Assembly (NCBI RefSeq): GCF_028751545.1
Contig: NZ_CP071867.1
Coordinates: 1,089,306 to 1,153,305 of the forward strand
Direction: 5' to 3'
DNA from: Gilliamella sp. B3022
GTDB lineage: Bacteria > Pseudomonadota > Gammaproteobacteria > Enterobacterales > Orbaceae
Length of the DNA stretch: 64,000 nt
The notes beneath the pieces are model-generated. The model saw only the letters and a list, made by a program, of their open reading frames with translations. It was not told the DNA's origin and did no database searches. A program made the translations under genes and the position numbers. Positions 19,338 through 27,104 of the stretch are shown in pieces (the stretch's first letter is position 1; the number at the start of each line of letters is the position of its first letter).

Positions 19338-20843
19338 ATGGCTGATAATCAGAAAAAAATAACCTTACTAACCCGATTTTCTTATGGTAGTGGTAATTTA
19401 ATAGGAAGTGGTGCGTTAGCAATCAGTGCGGCTTGGTTATTATACTTTTATACAACATTTTGTGGACTTTCAGCATTTCAAGCAACGTTAATTTTTTCAA
19501 TAGCTACCTATTTAGATGTAATTTTAAATCCACTAATGGGGTTTATTACTGATAACTTTAACCATACAAAACTTGGGCGTCGATTCGGACGTCGTCGATT
19601 CTTTATCCTATTTGCTATTCCATGTATGATTATTTACCCATTACTTTGGGTAGATGGGATGAATTTCTGGTACTACTTAACAACCTATATTTTATTTGAA
19701 TTCATCTATACCATGATTATGATTCCATACAATACTTTACCGGTAGAGATGACTAAAAACTTCGATCAAAGAACTTACCTAGCAGGCTCCAAAGCAATGT
19801 TTGGTAAAGTTGCCAACTTCTTAGCCGCTGCTATCCCTGGTGTATTTTTCTATCTATTTGATGGTAAAGACTCTCCACTACCATTCTTATTAACAGGTAT
19901 TACTTATGCATCTATTATGGCGATAGCACTAATTTTACTTTATTTTAATAGCTGGGAAAAATCAGTTGATGAAATTGAAGATGAAACAACTTCTGGCCTT
20001 TGGGAAAGTATTGTTAAATTATTTTCAGATGTTTTTTCAACTTTCCGTTTAAAAACCTTTAGAAACCATTTAGGTATGTATCTATTTGGCTTTGGTGCTG
20101 AATGGTTATTTGCGGCAACATTTACTTATTTTGTGGTATTTAACTTAGGTCAACCAAAAACCTTCGTTTCACAAATGAACAGTTTAAGCAGTATTTGTCA
20201 ACTCATTTCTACCGCCTTCTTCATGGCTTGGTGTGTAAAACGTGGATTCAAAAGACCATTTGTCATTGCAATACTAATTGTAATATCTTCAGTAATCGGT
20301 TATATCGGTGTTTACTACTTTAACATGCCTTATGTTACATGGATTGTTATTGGTATTACTATTTGGTTTGGTTTAGGAACAGGGGGGGTTTATTACATTC
20401 CATGGAGCGTATACACCTTCTTAGCTGACATTGATGAAGTATTAACAGGCAGACGCCGTGAAGGTATTTATGCAGGTGCCATGACCATGGCGGGTAAACT
20501 AATGCGCGCAACAATTGTCTTTATTTTAGGTATAGTATTGAAATATTCCGGTTTTGTATCAGGCGTAGATGCTGTTCAACCAGAGAGTGCGGTTACAGCA
20601 ATCAACTTAGTATTAGTCTTCGGTGTGTGTGGAATGGCACTATTAGGTATCTTCTTCACATATCGTATGAAATTAGATAAATCGACTCATGCACTTATTA
20701 TTCAAGAGCTTGATAGATTAAAAAACGGTGGTAAAAAACAAGATGCAACACCAGAAATAAGAAGTTTAGTTAAAGAGTTAACTGGATTTGATTATGACAA
20801 CTGTTTTGGTAATAATAATGTTGGCTTTAAACAACATCATTAA
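19338..20843 (+). CDS. togT: GPH-family sugar:cation symporter, TogT-like
   Basis: Inner-membrane transporter of the glycoside-pentoside-hexuronide family, with about 12 hydrophobic segments. The GPH pattern is visible in the first loops (DNFNHTKLGRRFGRRRFFIL, an Arg-rich cytoplasmic loop) and in IPYNTLPVEMTKNFDQRTYL. The start is ATG 19338 (501 aa), with AAGGA about 10 nt upstream; the upstream extension to 19266 is AT-rich and unlike the family. Its place opposite the porin operon with its own KdgR-like box makes oligogalacturonides or digalacturonate the likely cargo, an inference. Hexuronates are an alternative. Confidence 0.85.
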   Translation: MADNQKKITLLTRFSYGSGNLIGSGALAISAAWLLYFYTTFCGLSAFQATLIFSIATYLDVILNPLMGFITDNFNHTKLGRRFGRRRFFILFAIPCMIIYPLLWVDGMNFWYYLTTYILFEFIYTMIMIPYNTLPVEMTKNFDQRTYLAGSKAMFGKVANFLAAAIPGVFFYLFDGKDSPLPFLLTGITYASIMAIALILLYFNSWEKSVDEIEDETTSGLWESIVKLFSDVFSTFRLKTFRNHLGMYLFGFGAEWLFAATFTYFVVFNLGQPKTFVSQMNSLSSICQLISTAFFMAWCVKRGFKRPFVIAILIVISSVIGYIGVYYFNMPYVTWIVIGITIWFGLGTGGVYYIPWSVYTFLADIDEVLTGRRREGIYAGAMTMAGKLMRATIVFILGIVLKYSGFVSGVDAVQPESAVTAINLVLVFGVCGMALLGIFFTYRMKLDKSTHALIIQELDRLKNGGKKQDATPEIRSLVKELTGFDYDNCFGNNNVGFKQHH

Positions 20844-20874
20844 AAATAAGTAAAAATAATAATATCATCAATTG

Positions 20875-20909
20875 AAAATCATCTGATCTAATCCATTAGA
20901 TGATTTTTT
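20875..20909 (+). terminator. Terminator of the GPH transporter gene
   Basis: AAAATCATCT (20875-20884) pairs with AGATGATTTT (20898-20907) around a 13-nt loop; the 3' arm runs into a T6 tract. Confidence 0.8.
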
Positions 20910-20915
20910 AATATT

Positions 20916-21695
20916 TTAAATTAAGCCAAAATTATCTAGTGCTTTAGCAATACCGTCATTATCATTAGTATCTGTAACGTATTGAGCTTTGTCTTTTAGC
21001 GTCTTAACTGCATTCCCCATAGCTATTGGATGATCAACGGTTAGGAACATTTCCAAATCATTCATACCATCACCAAAGGCATATGTAGGTACGTCATTAA
21101 AACCTTTCATTTTTAATAGTTCACTGATACCTCTTCCTTTTGAACCACCATGATTAAAGACATCAACACAATAAGGAGTATTACGAATAAAAGTGAGTTC
21201 AGGAAATAGCTCACGATAAGATGATTCACCTTGCTCACAAAGCAATAACAACATTTGAATCGGTTCTTTTAAATAAATTTGATCATCAACAGAAGGAACA
21301 TCTTGTTTTAAATAATGGTAAAATTTTTGTGCAGGTTGACTATTTTCACTAATTCGCATCGTCTGATAATTATAAAAAGACAACGGAATATTCGTTTTCT
21401 CCCTAGAAAATTCATATAAACGAGTAATGACATTTTTATCAATATTATTGGTAAATACGACCTCTTTTTCATAAACAACGACTTGTCCATTCATCCCTAT
21501 AATCGAATTTATTCCCGTTTCTTTCATCAAATTAACTACTTCAAGTGGTGTTCTTCCTGTTGCTATTATAGGTATAATATTATTTTTTTTAAGTTTTTTT
21601 ATTGCATTATAAGAACTCGGCAATAGATCTATATTACTATTAAATAAAGTACCATCTAAGTCAAAAAAAACGATAGCTTCGGGTTTTTTAATCAT
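20916..21695 (-). CDS. HAD-IIB (Cof-type) sugar phosphatase
   Basis: Haloacid-dehalogenase phosphatase of the Cof/YidA type. The catalytic motif I FFDLDGTLF (nucleophile Asp plus general acid) is at residues 10-18, motif II is ATGRTP, motif III includes the Lys in GGSKGRG, and motif IV is AFGDGMNDLEMF. The C2-type cap lies between motifs II and III. Substrate cannot be read from the sequence; relatives act on phosphosugars or flavin phosphates. It starts 1 nt after the hda stop, so the two genes are probably co-transcribed. Confidence 0.88.
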   Translation of the reverse strand: MIKKPEAIVFFDLDGTLFNSNIDLLPSSYNAIKKLKKNNIIPIIATGRTPLEVVNLMKETGINSIIGMNGQVVVYEKEVVFTNNIDKNVITRLYEFSREKTNIPLSFYNYQTMRISENSQPAQKFYHYLKQDVPSVDDQIYLKEPIQMLLLLCEQGESSYRELFPELTFIRNTPYCVDVFNHGGSKGRGISELLKMKGFNDVPTYAFGDGMNDLEMFLTVDHPIAMGNAVKTLKDKAQYVTDTNDNDGIAKALDNFGLI

Positions 21696-21696
21696 A

Positions 21697-22380
21697 TTAC
21701 AAATCCAAAATATTTTTAATAAAAGGAATAGTTAACTTACGTTGTTGAGCTAATGTAGCTACTTCAAATTTTTCTAATAATGAAAATAAGGTACGCATAT
21801 CACGATTAACACGTTTTAATAAAAATAATCCAACTTCTGTTGATAATTCAAATCCACTTAATTGGGCTCTTAACTGTAAAGCTTTGAGTTTATCATCATC
21901 ACTTAATTCTTTTAATTGATAAACTTGTCCCCAAGACAATCTAGAAACCAAATCTGGTAAGATAAAAGAAATTTGTTTAGGTGGCGCACTTGCAGTAATT
22001 AATAATTTAGAAATGTTCTTTTCCGTTAATCGATTAAATAAATCAAAAATAGCCTCTTCCCAATCTCTATGACCCGCTATCGCATCAATATCATCTAAAC
22101 ACACTAAATCATAATTATCTAATCCTTGTAGAATTTCAGGAACCAAATGATAGTATTGCTTTAAAGGAATATAACTGGCTAACTTATTTTGACTTGATGC
22201 ATGTAATAAATGAGTACGACCAGAAACTGTTGCTGACCATATATAAAAGACATTAAAACTCTCTTTACCCAATAAGGTTTGTAAAGAATCAAACAATAAT
22301 TGATTATCACCTACATAAAAACTATCAAAAGTTTCATTATTAGGTAATGAAAAAGGTAAAGGTAGCTGTGAAAGAGTAAT
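21697..22380 (-). CDS. hda: DnaA regulatory inactivator Hda, apparent AUU start
   Basis: AAA+ protein that works with the DNA-loaded sliding clamp to hydrolyse ATP on DnaA after initiation. Visible are the Walker A remnant SGRTHLLHA, CLDDIDAIAG, the sensor/box region and the C-terminal RKLTIPFIKNILDL as in E. coli Hda. The clamp-binding motif QLPLPF and the conserved SLPNNETFDSF lie upstream of the first TTG (22296). The in-frame codons before them are TGA-GGT-TTT-TTT-ATT. ATT at 22380 has GTGAGG 7 nt upstream and gives MTLSQLPLPF, 227 aa, matching the E. coli N-terminus. E. coli hda itself is reported to start at CUG. Confidence 0.9.
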   Translation of the reverse strand: MTLSQLPLPFSLPNNETFDSFYVGDNQLLFDSLQTLLGKESFNVFYIWSATVSGRTHLLHASSQNKLASYIPLKQYYHLVPEILQGLDNYDLVCLDDIDAIAGHRDWEEAIFDLFNRLTEKNISKLLITASAPPKQISFILPDLVSRLSWGQVYQLKELSDDDKLKALQLRAQLSGFELSTEVGLFLLKRVNRDMRTLFSLLEKFEVATLAQQRKLTIPFIKNILDL

Positions 22381-22944
22381 AAAAAAACCTCACAATAAAA
22401 AAACGAATCGCATTAAGTATAAATTTGCTTTTACAAAAATCAATCACTTTTATAGAAAAGTAAATAAGATCCCATAAAGGCTTATTAAATATTTAATTTT
22501 AAAACAACAAAATACTTTGTAAACTTTTAAAGTTATAATATTAAATAATGATATATACAATTTGTATTGGTATAAAACTAACCATACTATTATTATTTAT
22601 TAATAATAGAATAAATGATATCTATATAAATAAAAATATTTTGCATTATTCAAATATCATTAAACAATTTTAATCACATCAATTTTATCTTCTTATTATA
22701 AATAATTTAAGCACAAATCCTCTTTTATAGTATTATAAACGAACTTTAATATAGCATAAAATCATTGAATTAACTTAAGCGATATTTTTTGATCTAAAAG
22801 TATTTTTATTAAAAGTAAAAACGAAATATCTTTTCAAAGATCTTACCTGTTAATGTGATCCTCCACTCTTTTTCAAAAAATAGATCATATAATCAAGTAT
22901 AAAATTAAATCAATAAAAGCTAAAAAATAAGCAAACAAATTTAT

Positions 22945-23250
22945 TTTCTGTGGATAACTCTGTGCTAAAACTGGATAACAAGCTGTGATAAGCATATTAA
23001 CAACCCAAAAAAATAAATTCTTTGTGGATAAGTAATCTATTTATCAACAATTTTAAACAAGAAAAGATCCGATCAATTAACAGAGTTAACTATTGTATAA
23101 GATCCTATAAAATAATTATAAATACCAGTTATCAACAGAAAAGATCCAACATAATAATAATAAAAATAAAAGATCATATAAAAGATCTTATTTAATTTAG
23201 ATCGCGATCAAAATAGATCATTTGACGTAATGAAAAAGATGAGTAAAATT
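22945..23250. other. oriC: Chromosomal replication origin oriC
   Basis: DnaA boxes: TTATCCACA on the minus strand at 22949-22957 and 23023-23031; TTATCAACA on the plus strand at 23041-23049 and 23129-23137; weaker ones at 22970-22978 (TTATCCAGT) and 22983-22991 (TTATCACAG). On the mnmG side, reading minus, are three E. coli-like AT-rich 13-mers starting GATCTTTT: 23146-23134, 23175-23163 (a full match to GATCTnTTnTTTT) and 23187-23175. I count about 15 GATC sites between 22790 and 23320. The position upstream of mnmG is the enteric one. The rest of the 950-bp gap (22394-22940) is very AT-rich with no gene I can support. Confidence 0.93.
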
Positions 23251-23330
23251 CCCTACGCTAAATAAATCCAAATCACATGATCAAAAAATATTTGATCGCC
23301 TATATATAAAATAACGTACGAGGCTTTTTT

Positions 23331-25223
23331 ATGTTTTATCCAGATCTTTTTGATGTCATCATTGTAGGTGGTGGACATGCAGGAACCGAAGCCGCTATGG
23401 CATCAGCAAGAATGGGGCGAAAAACACTACTTTTAACCCATAATATCAATACATTAGGTCAAATGTCCTGTAATCCAGCTATCGGTGGTATAGGTAAAGG
23501 TCATTTGGTTAAAGAAATTGATGCTATGGGAGGATTAATGGCTCATGCTATTGATCTGGCAGGGATCCAATTTCGAATATTAAATAGTAGTAAAGGACCC
23601 GCGGTAAGAGCAACGCGCGCTCAAGCAGATCGATCTTTATATTGCAAAGTAATAAGAACAACCCTTGAAAACCAAGAAAACTTAATGTTATTTCAACAAT
23701 CAGTTGAAGACGTGATCATCGAAAATGATCAGATCACAGGTGTTGTGACTCAAATGGGTGTTTCTTTCAAAGCAAAAGCAGTTGTATTAACCACAGGTAC
23801 ATTTTTAGATGGTAAGATCCACATAGGACTTGATAATTATAGTGGTGGACGGACAGGTGATCCTGCTGCAATTGGTTTATCTAAAGCATTACATCAATAT
23901 CCATTTAGAATGGGGCGTTTAAAAACAGGTACTCCACCAAGGATTGATGCTAGAACAATTGATTTTTCACAATTAAATACCCAATATGGTGACGATCCTA
24001 CACCAGTATTCTCATTTTTAGGTAAAGCCAGTGAACATCCTAGACAGATCCCATGCTATATTACCAGTACCAATGAAATAACACATGAGATCATTCGAAA
24101 TAGTTTGGATCGTAGTCCTATGTATACTGGTATTATTGAAGGTGTTGGACCAAGATATTGTCCATCAATAGAAGATAAAATTATGCGTTTTGCGGATCGT
24201 AATTCGCATCAGATCTATTTAGAACCAGAAGGATTAAACTGTAATGAAATCTATCCGAATGGGATCTCAACGAGTTTACCATTTGATGTTCAACTAGCCT
24301 TTGTACGGAGTATGAAAGGATTAGAGAATGCTAATATTGTCAGACCTGGCTATGCGATCGAATATGATTATTTTGATCCTCGAGATCTCAAACCAACACT
24401 TGAAAGTAAAGTGATCAAAGGTTTATTTTTAGCTGGACAGATCAATGGTACTACAGGTTATGAAGAAGCCGCTGCTCAAGGTATGCTGGCAGGATTAAAT
24501 GCAGCTCGTTTTGTTTATGATCAAGATCAATGGTATCCAACTCGTGATCAAGCTTATTTAGGAGTGTTAGTTGATGATCTTTGTACACTTGGTACCAATG
24601 AACCTTATCGCATGTTCACCTCGCGTGCTGAATATCGTTTAATGCTACGTGAAGATAATGCAGATATTCGCTTAACGGAAATTGGCCGTAAATTAGGTAT
24701 GGTGGATGATTATCGTTGGCAACGTTTTAATGAAAAATTTGAAGCTATTGAGCAAGAAAGAGCGCGTTTACGTGATATTTGGGTTCATCCTCACATTGAA
24801 AAAATTGATGAAGTTAATGCGGTATTAAGCGCTAACCTTACCAAAGAAGCCAATGGCGAAGAGTTGCTTAAACGTCCTGAAATGAGTTATAAAACACTAC
24901 AATCTTTGTCTCTATTTGCACCAGGGCTAAGTGATGATCAAGCAGCAGAACAAGTTGAAATACAAGTTAAATATGATGGTTATATAAAATTACAAATTGA
25001 AGAAATTGAACGCCAAAAACGTAATGAAGAAACTCTTATTCCAGAGCATATTGATTATGCGGAAATTTCAGGTTTATCAAATGAAGTTGTGGCTAAATTA
25101 AAGCAACATAAACCTGTGTCAATTGGACAAGCTTCACGTATATCGGGTATTACTCCGGCAGCGATTTCAATGCTATTAGTTTATTTAAAAAAGAAGAATT
25201 ATGTTAAAAAAGAAACTCATTAA
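23331..25223 (+). CDS. mnmG: tRNA uridine 5-carboxymethylaminomethyl modification enzyme MnmG
   Basis: FAD-dependent partner of MnmE that builds the cmnm5/nm5 group on U34 of tRNAs. The dinucleotide fold [13 protein letters not shown] is at the N-terminus. [29 protein letters not shown] and [16 protein letters not shown] are the GidA signatures. The catalytic Cys sits in YCPSIEDK, and the C-terminal GISPAAI-like helical region binds MnmE. It is 630 residues (E. coli 629). GAGG is 8 nt upstream of the ATG. About 27 GATC sites fall inside this gene, nearly all in its first 1.25 kb. It overlaps rsmG by 23 nt. Confidence 0.98.
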
Positions 25224-25800
25224 TCTTATTGATCAAACGGATCTATCGATCACTGATCTACAAATTGATCAGCTGGTTGATTATGTTGAAATGCTTAATA
25301 AATGGAATAAGGCTTATAATTTAACTGCGGTGCGTGATCCAAAAGAAATGCTCATTAAACATATCATGGATAGCTTAGTTGTATCCCCTTATTTAATTGG
25401 TAAGTCCTTTATAGATGTGGGTACAGGTCCTGGGCTACCAGGTATACCACTAGCTATTATTAATCCTGATAAGCAATTTGATTTAGTTGATAGTTTAGGT
25501 AAACGTATTCGTTTTTTAAAACAGGTACAATTTGAATTAAAATTAAAAAATATCAATCCTGTACAAAATCGTATTGAAGAGTATATCGATAAAAAATTTG
25601 ATGGAGTAATCAGTCGAGCCTTCGCTTCTTTGCAAGATATGCTTAGTTGGTGTAAACATCTTCCTAATCAACAAGGTGCTTTCTATGCCTTAAAAGGTAG
25701 CGATATTGATGTCATTCCTGAAGGTTTTATTCTTAAACAAAATATAAAACTGACTGTCCCAGAATTAGATGCAGAAAGAAGTTTAGTTATTATTCAATAG
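25201..25800 (+). CDS. rsmG: 16S rRNA (guanine-527-N7) methyltransferase RsmG
   Basis: SAM-dependent methylation of G527 in 16S rRNA. The class I fold shows in [16 protein letters not shown] (SAM loop), followed by [16 protein letters not shown] and [13 protein letters not shown]. The N-terminal segment [21 protein letters not shown] is characteristic. At 199 residues it is slightly shorter than E. coli (207). The ATG lies inside the 3' end of mnmG, in another frame, so translation is likely coupled. The first 140 nt hold six GATC sites. It converges on amiC with 44 nt between. Confidence 0.97.
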
Positions 25801-25844
25801 ATTATATCTTAAACATATAGTTTACCTGAAACTTCTTAGAAAAT

Positions 25845-27104
25845 TTATTTTTTACGTTTTTTCAGGTAATCTTTAATACCATTAACGATTGCGTTAGATA
25901 TTTGGATCTGGAATGCAGCTGTATTTAATTTTTGTTCTTCATTAACATTGCTAATGAAGGCTGTTTCAACTAAAACAGAAGGTATATCAGGAGCTTTTAA
26001 TACCGCAAAACCTGCTTTCTCAATTGATGGTTTACGTAATTTGTTGACGCTTTTCATGCGGTTTAAAATAGAACTGCCCAATATTACACCATTACTCAGC
26101 GTAGTTTTTTGTACTAAATCTAATATGGTATTATCTAAATATTTATCACCACTGCGACTTATACCACCAATTTGATCAGCTTCATTTTGAGTTTGTGCTA
26201 AATAGCTAGCAGCTGAACTACTTGCCCCTTTAGTTGAAAGGGCAAAAACAGATGATCCTTTTACAGATCGATCTATAAAAGCATCAGCATGAATGGAAAT
26301 AAAAAGATCAGCTTGCAAAGAACGTGCTTTTGCCACTCGTACATTTAAAGGAATAAACACATCTTCATTACGAGTCATATAGACTTTTATATTAGGCTCT
26401 TTTTTAAGTAGACTGTAAGTACGACGAGCTATTTGTAAAACAATGTCTTTTTCTCGTGTTTTTTTAAAACCAATAGCGCCAGGATCTTCACCACCATGAC
26501 CAGGATCAAGTACAACTACTACTGGTGGAGTTTGTGTGCTTTTCTTCTGTGAATTTTTCTTTTTATTGTTATCAATTTTGATTTCAGACTGTTTTTTACT
26601 AAGATCGCCTTCTTTATACTCTTCTAATAGAGCAAGTAAAGGATCATTATCTTCAGTTAAAGCTACTTTAGATGGATAAAGATCGATAACTAAACGATTT
26701 TTATATTTTCCAATTGGTGGAAGTGTAAAAGTATTTGGGTTAATATCCTGTTTTAATTCGATCATTATTCTTACTGTTTTGCTATTGAGCTGAATAACTT
26801 TCAACGATTTAATATAAGGATCACGACTTAATACTTTTGATGAAATTTTTTTTAAGGCTGTATCTAAATTAATATCATTGATATCAACAGCAAGCCTTTT
26901 TGGATTGTTTAGTAAAGAATGATTATATTTTAAACGTGTGTTTGTTTCTATTGTTATTCTTGTATAGGTTGATGAAGGCCAAATACGTACTGCAACCACT
27001 TTTGCTAATGTTGCGGCAAAACCAACACGCGTGACAGATAATAAACATGTCGCAATGATACCTTTAATTAATAGGCGCTTTGTTGGACTGAGTGTTTTGG
27101 GCAT
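25845..27104 (-). CDS. amiC: N-acetylmuramoyl-L-alanine amidase AmiC (AMIN + Amidase_3)
   Basis: Periplasmic septal amidase that splits daughter-cell wall, normally activated by NlpD. An N-terminal export signal, a peptidoglycan-targeting AMIN domain (about residues 33-145), a Lys/Ser-rich linker and a C-terminal Amidase_3 domain are visible. Zinc motifs are LDPGHGGEDPGA, the Glu in TREKDIVL, SIHADAF and LVETAF. The gating insert around SRSGDKYLDNTILDL is present. E. coli AmiC is Tat-exported; here the start has no obvious twin-Arg motif, so Sec export is more likely. It is 419 residues (E. coli 417) and is the second amidase in the window. Confidence 0.92.
   Translation of the reverse strand: MPKTLSPTKRLLIKGIIATCLLSVTRVGFAATLAKVVAVRIWPSSTYTRITIETNTRLKYNHSLLNNPKRLAVDINDINLDTALKKISSKVLSRDPYIKSLKVIQLNSKTVRIMIELKQDINPNTFTLPPIGKYKNRLVIDLYPSKVALTEDNDPLLALLEEYKEGDLSKKQSEIKIDNNKKKNSQKKSTQTPPVVVVLDPGHGGEDPGAIGFKKTREKDIVLQIARRTYSLLKKEPNIKVYMTRNEDVFIPLNVRVAKARSLQADLFISIHADAFIDRSVKGSSVFALSTKGASSSAASYLAQTQNEADQIGGISRSGDKYLDNTILDLVQKTTLSNGVILGSSILNRMKSVNKLRKPSIEKAGFAVLKAPDIPSVLVETAFISNVNEEQKLNTAAFQIQISNAIVNGIKDYLKKRKK

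Follow-up and report, generated by a model that had tools for sequence, protein, structure and literature searches.

A GATC-dense array extends from oriC into the mnmG coding sequence of Gilliamella

Results

The window, which is the whole 64-kb stretch of DNA analysed here, covers positions 1089306–1153305 of a 2.6-Mb, one-contig Gilliamella genome; the coordinates below are counted from its first letter. It carries mnmG (gidA; 23331–25223, forward strand), which encodes a 630-aa protein matching PF01134 (GIDA, E = 3.5e-173) and contains 27 GATC sites in total. The closest named relatives of this MnmG are found in Gilliamella (94–97% identity), followed by Frischella, other Orbaceae, and Orbus (88–91%). 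Downstream of mnmG is rsmG (gidB; 25201–25800, forward strand, PF02527), and beyond rsmG, on the reverse strand, is a gene encoding an N-acetylmuramoyl-L-alanine amidase (AMIN/Amidase_3; 25845–27104, PF01520), referred to below as the amidase gene. On the opposite flank lies hda (21697–22296, reverse strand, PF22688 Hda_lid and PF00308), which contains no GATC. The intergenic region between hda and mnmG (22297–23330) contains 16 GATC sites, 15 of them in its last 540 bp. Pattern matching with the E. coli DnaA-box motif returned two copies of TTATCCACA on the reverse strand (22949–22957 and 23023–23031) and two box-like copies of TTATCAACA on the forward strand (23041–23049 and 23129–23137). 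These are followed, on the mnmG side, by an AT-rich run (23143–23219) with six closely spaced GATC sites (23143, 23172, 23184, 23200, 23206, and 23216), which by its position and look is probably an E. coli-type unwinding element. The cumulative GC skew of the window reaches its minimum at 20001–24000, an interval that includes the intergenic region. With the GATC cluster, two DnaA boxes, two near-boxes, and the skew minimum all present, the hda/mnmG intergenic region is oriC, arranged as in E. coli except that hda replaces mioC. Like oriC of E. coli, it is GATC-dense and contains DnaA boxes, and mnmG is transcribed away from it. In E. coli, too, the mnmG side of oriC bears an AT-rich stretch with GATC sites.

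The hda gene encodes a regulator that inactivates DnaA, and here it adjoins oriC at the position that mioC occupies in E. coli; in five loci from three other Orbaceae genera, it lies on the mnmG side, approximately 4.5–6 kb from the mnmG start. The hda open reading frame (ORF) is 600 bp in this genome compared to 663–669 bp in some congeners. Its frame appears to continue upstream of the listed TTG start at 22296 (approximately 22297–22370, reverse strand), and the start codon may be unusual.

SeqA binds hemimethylated GATC clusters near oriC and thereby blocks re-initiation, and MutH acts at hemimethylated GATC sites. The presence of dam and seqA, which the first-pass annotation of this DNA had singled out as a check, was established by profile matches: Dam is encoded (TIGR00571, 276.6 bits, above the cut-off; PF02086 also matched), as is a SeqA with both its N-terminal multimerisation domain (PF17206) and its C-terminal DNA-binding domain (PF03925), both above the cut-off. 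MutH is encoded in the same genome.

The first-pass annotation had also described a GATC island at 23343–24583 with 26 sites, followed by a single site in the remaining 640 nt of mnmG. These counts are exact (the lone site is at 24936), and the coding part of the island stands (26 sites at 23343–24579, by counts and codon shuffles); its proposed start does not, as the island begins within oriC at about 22790. When the synonymous codons of mnmG were shuffled among their own positions, 13.2 ± 1.8 GATC sites were expected against the 27 observed (z 7.7), and the maximum in 5000 shuffles was 21, an excess far above chance, as had been supposed. In 400 of the 2599 kb, sampled evenly as 20-kb stretches (n = 20), the genomic background is 3.06 GATC per kb. 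In this 400-kb sample, the densest 1241-bp segment contained 11 sites (37520 sliding positions, steps of 10), compared to 28 in the densest segment at the locus, which starts at 23031 and is hence partly intergenic. No unrelated gene of equal density emerged among 281 other sampled ORFs, whose z averaged −0.04 and peaked at 3.67. A whole-genome search for three GATC sites within 72 bp gave 98 forward matches, of which 16 fall in 3.4 kb at this locus (22839–26273). Among the 256 tetramers, GATC ranked first in mnmG (z 7.7), and the runner-up reached z 3.9.

The excess is built into codon choice. As had been noted for isoleucine, in the first 1245 nt of mnmG, Ile codons preceded by a G are ATC in 11 of 12 cases, compared to 200/1144 in the genome sample. 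The preceding codon is also involved: where a codon before Ile is able to end in G, it does so in 12/26 cases, compared to 17/250 elsewhere in the same 1245 nt. NNG-ATC is realised at 11/26 possible sites in this part of the gene versus 200/5960 in the genome sample. The excess might simply follow from codon usage, composition, or the level of expression, with ATC being preferred for Ile in highly expressed genes, and the ATC share of all Ile codons in the first 1245 nt (16/34, versus 1559/8597 in the genome sample) goes in that direction. However, ATC is concentrated after G and appears at only 5/22 of the other Ile codons in the stretch, the shuffle that retains every mnmG codon still gives z 7.7, no other tetramer of the gene is so enriched, and orthologues from genomes lacking SeqA, including five very AT-rich reduced genomes, have no such excess (see below); a codon by-product is thus hardly credible. 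In the last third of mnmG, the use of NNG-ATC falls from 11/26 to 0/12 possible sites (Fisher p 0.008), and the drop in GATC after 24583 is due in part to fewer sites being possible given the amino-acid sequence and in part to lower usage. The spacing of sites shows no adjustment for SeqA pairing: 12 pairs lie 5–34 bp apart, and 11.5 are expected when NNG-ATC is permuted among the possible positions.

We then compared mnmG among 30 Gilliamella genomes, in which the gene has equal length and a median pairwise identity of 85%. Retention was scored where the amino acids were unchanged. With the gene in the window as reference, NNG-ATC was retained in the 29 congeners at a rate of 0.85 (11 sites) versus 0.37 for other pre-Ile junctions (35), and GAT-C at 0.99 (14 sites) versus 0.78 for other Asp codons (19), the control junctions being comparable rather than perfectly matched. 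The same held when each of the 30 genomes served as reference, with no overlap between sites and controls for either NNG-ATC (0.65–0.90 versus 0.29–0.44) or GAT-C (0.99–1.0 versus 0.68–0.86). The 30 genes together have 49 distinct GATC sites, with a mean of 27.4 per gene and 10 sites common to all. The array is therefore conserved in two ways: some positions are fixed, and elsewhere some density is maintained with turnover of sites.

The reach of the island was profiled in 12 Orbaceae (the window and 11 relatives; four further loci were dropped because their orientation pattern failed). On average, 10.9 GATC sites lie in the 500 bp of intergenic sequence next to mnmG, and then 8.3, 7.7, 7.0, 4.8, 2.5, 2.6, and 5.8 in successive 500-bp segments from the mnmG start; from +3.5 kb to +8 kb and upstream of −500, the means are at most 2.2 and 2.3 per 500 bp, respectively. 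Gene by gene, the median own-codon z at the named Gilliamella loci, which overlap the other Orbaceae genome set and are not independent samples, is −0.85 for hda (n = 24), 7.6 for mnmG (n = 25), 3.5 for rsmG (n = 25), 2.2 for the amidase gene (n = 25), and 0.5 for miaB (n = 23). In the genome studied here, rsmG reaches a z of only 1.0, though its first 140 nt contain six GATC sites; the amidase gene, with 13 GATC versus 8.3 expected (z 3.0), is a weaker outer part of the island. The hda side is not enriched (z −0.6), so an excess in both genes flanking oriC, which is a published average and not a requirement, is absent here. Thus, the island starts in oriC and extends in one direction only, towards the AT-rich run and through mnmG, continuing weakly to approximately +3.5 kb.

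The mnmG comparison was extended across the order and the class, using 127 of 128 mnmG loci (L108 was dropped as partial) and calling SeqA by PF03925. In the order, SeqA was searched in 73 of 119 genomes, the 73 being chosen for spread, and in two Orbaceae. The sets scored were 38 of 43 Orbaceae genomes with a match (SeqA checked in eight of the 38), 34 of 37 other SeqA-positive genomes of the order (G272, G360, and G379 left out), 25 of 30 SeqA-negative genomes of the order (G273, G277, G302, G349, and G367 left out), and 29 of the 36 SeqA-negative genomes among those searched in the class. In statistics that ignore kinship, with relatives that are not independent samples, the median mnmG own-codon z is 7.6 in Orbaceae (range 1.7–9.5; 30 of the 38 are Gilliamella), 2.75 in the other SeqA-positive genomes (−0.1 to 6.9), 0.0 in the SeqA-negative genomes of the order (−2.3 to 3.0; 1/25 at or above 2), and −0.1 in those of the class (−1.9 to 2.8; 3/29 at or above 2). 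The eight Orbaceae outside Gilliamella gave z values of 8.7, 6.1, 3.2 (L057), 1.7 (L112, genome G271), 4.0, 6.6, 9.5, and 7.5, and two Orbaceae genes outside the 38 gave 2.9 (L166, G268) and 0.8 (L167, G267). Hence, strong enrichment is a property of Gilliamella and several other Orbaceae and not of every member of the family. Outside the Orbaceae, one mnmG of the order (L148, G282) has 29 GATC sites and z 6.9, and strong enrichment therefore occurs beyond this family.

The SeqA-negative genomes also bear on mismatch repair, for which a high GATC density near the origin might serve MutH; MutH is encoded in the Gilliamella genome and acts at such sites when hemimethylated. In 18 of the 21 genomes of the order that have Dam and MutH but lack SeqA (with weak Dam matches, possibly other methylases, in G289 and G313), the median mnmG z is 0.2 (−1.4 to 3.0), which argues against mismatch repair and for SeqA; mnmG lies beside DnaA boxes in only three of the 17 with full upstream sequence. 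Mismatch repair also gives no reason for a one-sided patch anchored at oriC, and we consider it very improbable. Within one family, two SeqA-positive genomes have z 3.1 and 3.3 (L118 and L119), whereas a SeqA-negative relative with Dam and MutH has −1.3 (L120), with four DnaA-box matches still upstream of mnmG. Position and SeqA are nevertheless hard to separate. A DnaA-box cluster adjoins mnmG in 32/34 and 32/32 genomes of two SeqA-positive sets, while at least two matches are present in only 3/24 (order) and 1/27 (class) of the SeqA-negative genomes with a full 800-bp upstream region, the three from the order all belonging to the Dam- and MutH-positive set. None of these four SeqA-negative genomes, a small number, is enriched (z 0.3, −1.3, 1.0, and −0.9). 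The loss of SeqA and the departure of mnmG from oriC are thus largely confounded. An oriC away from mnmG was not found among the Orbaceae examined, so that the comparison with relatives whose oriC lies elsewhere is possible only in SeqA-negative genomes, where it is subject to this confounding.

Several genomes depart from the general pattern. Among SeqA-positive genomes outside the Orbaceae, 10/34 have z < 2 although their upstream regions are rich in GATC (e.g., L121, −0.1; L073, 0.0), indicating that extension of GATC sites into mnmG is not needed everywhere; the number of upstream sites and the mnmG z are, if anything, negatively related (Spearman −0.31, n = 66). The three SeqA-negative genomes of the class with z of at least 2 comprise one with Dam and MutH (L097, G066; 2.8) and two with no Dam above the cut-off (2.7 and 2.3). 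The one such genome of the order (G319, L141), which has Dam and MutH, has z 3.0 and 21 GATC sites in the 800 bp upstream of mnmG. Nineteen of its sites lie 130–521 bp upstream, several of them inside TGATCAG. This array without a detected SeqA may reflect a SeqA that has diverged or a different system that binds GATC.

In the Orbaceae genome G271, an 11-GATC cluster at 1.31 Mb together with the weak enrichment of mnmG suggested that the origin had been relocated. This reading was discarded, because mnmG has two DnaA-box matches immediately upstream, and the distant cluster has none. The sampled skew is negative at 20–40 kb and 330–349 kb and positive from 600–620 kb onwards, in the stretches sampled up to 1.3 Mb. 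This agrees with an origin close to mnmG (342 kb), although the 19-kb stretch itself shows no sharp switch. The cluster itself (L152, 9143–9436) places 11 GATC sites in approximately 300 bp upstream of zapC, with repeats resembling unwinding-element 13-mers, and possibly reflects Dam/SeqA control of this cell-division gene.

Taken together, across the order, mnmG enrichment accompanies SeqA and is mostly absent from Dam- and MutH-positive genomes that lack it, subject to the confounding with the position of mnmG. The proposal of the first-pass annotation that selection acts on GATC through synonymous codons is supported by the codon shuffle, the specificity for this tetramer, its conservation in congeners, and its near-absence in SeqA-negative genomes.

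Discussion

GATC enrichment in coding sequence linked to oriC was already published in 2016. The DistAMo study (Front Microbiol 2016, PMC4786541) reports that both genes flanking oriC are GATC-rich after codon correction in Dam-positive, but not Dam-negative, gammaproteobacteria, with mean z of 3.3 and 1.8, and explains this by stronger binding of SeqA to the origin. The locus described here is like that class in having a codon-corrected excess in the gene beside oriC (mnmG z 7.7). It is unlike the DistAMo average in that the Gilliamella island is one-sided, with none on the hda side, and reaches rsmG and the amidase gene. The median own-codon z of Gilliamella and other Orbaceae is about 2.8 times that of other SeqA-positive genomes of the order, the z of DistAMo being on a different scale. 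The words Gilliamella, gidA, mnmG, and Orbales are absent from the main text of that study (PMC4786541). Among the matches listed in the open-licence PubMed Central literature, judged partly by title and the start of the abstract, we found none on GATC enrichment by oriC in Gilliamella or Orbaceae. What is new is therefore the strength of the enrichment in Gilliamella and several Orbaceae, its one-sided reach to approximately 3.5 kb, and its conservation at the level of sites with turnover; new too is the contrast with Dam- and MutH-positive, SeqA-negative genomes, with its confounding by the separation of mnmG from oriC.

By the same measure, mnmG of E. coli is only mildly enriched (21 GATC versus 15.4 expected, z 2.3, in one strain), and its counts per 500 bp from −500 are 18, 8, 6, 3, and 4, near background approximately 1 kb into the gene (same strain). 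In E. coli, SeqA keeps both oriC and the promoter of gidA in an inactive state for approximately one-third of the cell cycle (PMC5145175, PMC4446571). The first of these reports also describes the GATC-dense dnaA promoter as a second long-sequestered locus that SeqA keeps hemimethylated (PMC5145175); that locus is a promoter region, unlike an array that runs through the gene beside oriC.

The main rival to a role at the origin is that the array serves mainly in the cell-cycle control of transcription of mnmG (and rsmG), the intergenic GATC sites being sufficient for origin sequestration: SeqA bound to promoter-proximal coding sequence would block or slow RNA polymerase until remethylation. In E. 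coli, sequestration blocks the transcription of gidA (PMC4446571), and mnmG is the one gene near the examined high-density Dam clusters whose RNA changes significantly in a dam mutant (PMC12369378). The island also lies on one side only, that of mnmG, which is transcribed away from oriC. However, blocking a promoter would not require 1.2 kb of coding sites, and mild enrichment extends to the amidase gene, on the opposite strand 2.5–3.8 kb from the start of mnmG. We regard transcription control as the main purpose as unlikely; it is compatible with sequestration and may be part of the same event. Less probable still is a site at which SeqA is loaded onto the new fork or holds sister origins together, rather than one that blocks re-initiation. 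E. coli SeqA binds behind forks and is tied to segregation (as cited in PMC4786541), and a one-sided reach could bias one replichore; yet the present observations fit sequestration as well, and loading at forks would be expected on both sides of oriC.

Weighing these readings, we consider it likely that the Dam sites of the island form an array maintained by selection and extend the oriC platform for SeqA sequestration into coding DNA, on the AT-rich (probable unwinding) side. After passage of the fork, the GATC sites in oriC and throughout the first two thirds of mnmG would be left hemimethylated, and we infer that SeqA binds them cooperatively and delays their remethylation. The SeqA-bound array would then stop DnaA from re-opening the origin, with the mnmG promoter presumably kept off, as in E. 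coli. Being contiguous with oriC, the coding part of the array would enlarge and stabilise the SeqA complex. It is built from synonymous choices because the DNA must still encode MnmG, chiefly through NNG-ATC at Ile and, in addition, through GAT rather than GAC for Asp before C.

A further-reaching reading, which we offer only tentatively, is that coding DNA has taken over much of the sequestration load from the intergenic oriC in Gilliamella and several other Orbaceae, giving a one-sided platform of approximately 3.5 kb that is anchored at the unwinding element, runs through mnmG, rsmG, and (in Gilliamella) the amidase gene, and is kept by selection on density with turnover of sites.

The mnmG gene is a clean case of a coding gene with a second, DNA-level code under measurable selection. 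With a z near 8 and sites resolved in 30 congeners, it offers a sharper system than E. coli for asking how far the SeqA zone must reach, and whether initiation once per cycle depends on GATC sites in coding DNA, as distinct from those of oriC itself. If the further-reaching reading given above is true, mnmG would be in these bacteria the blueprint of an enzyme and a replication timer at once.
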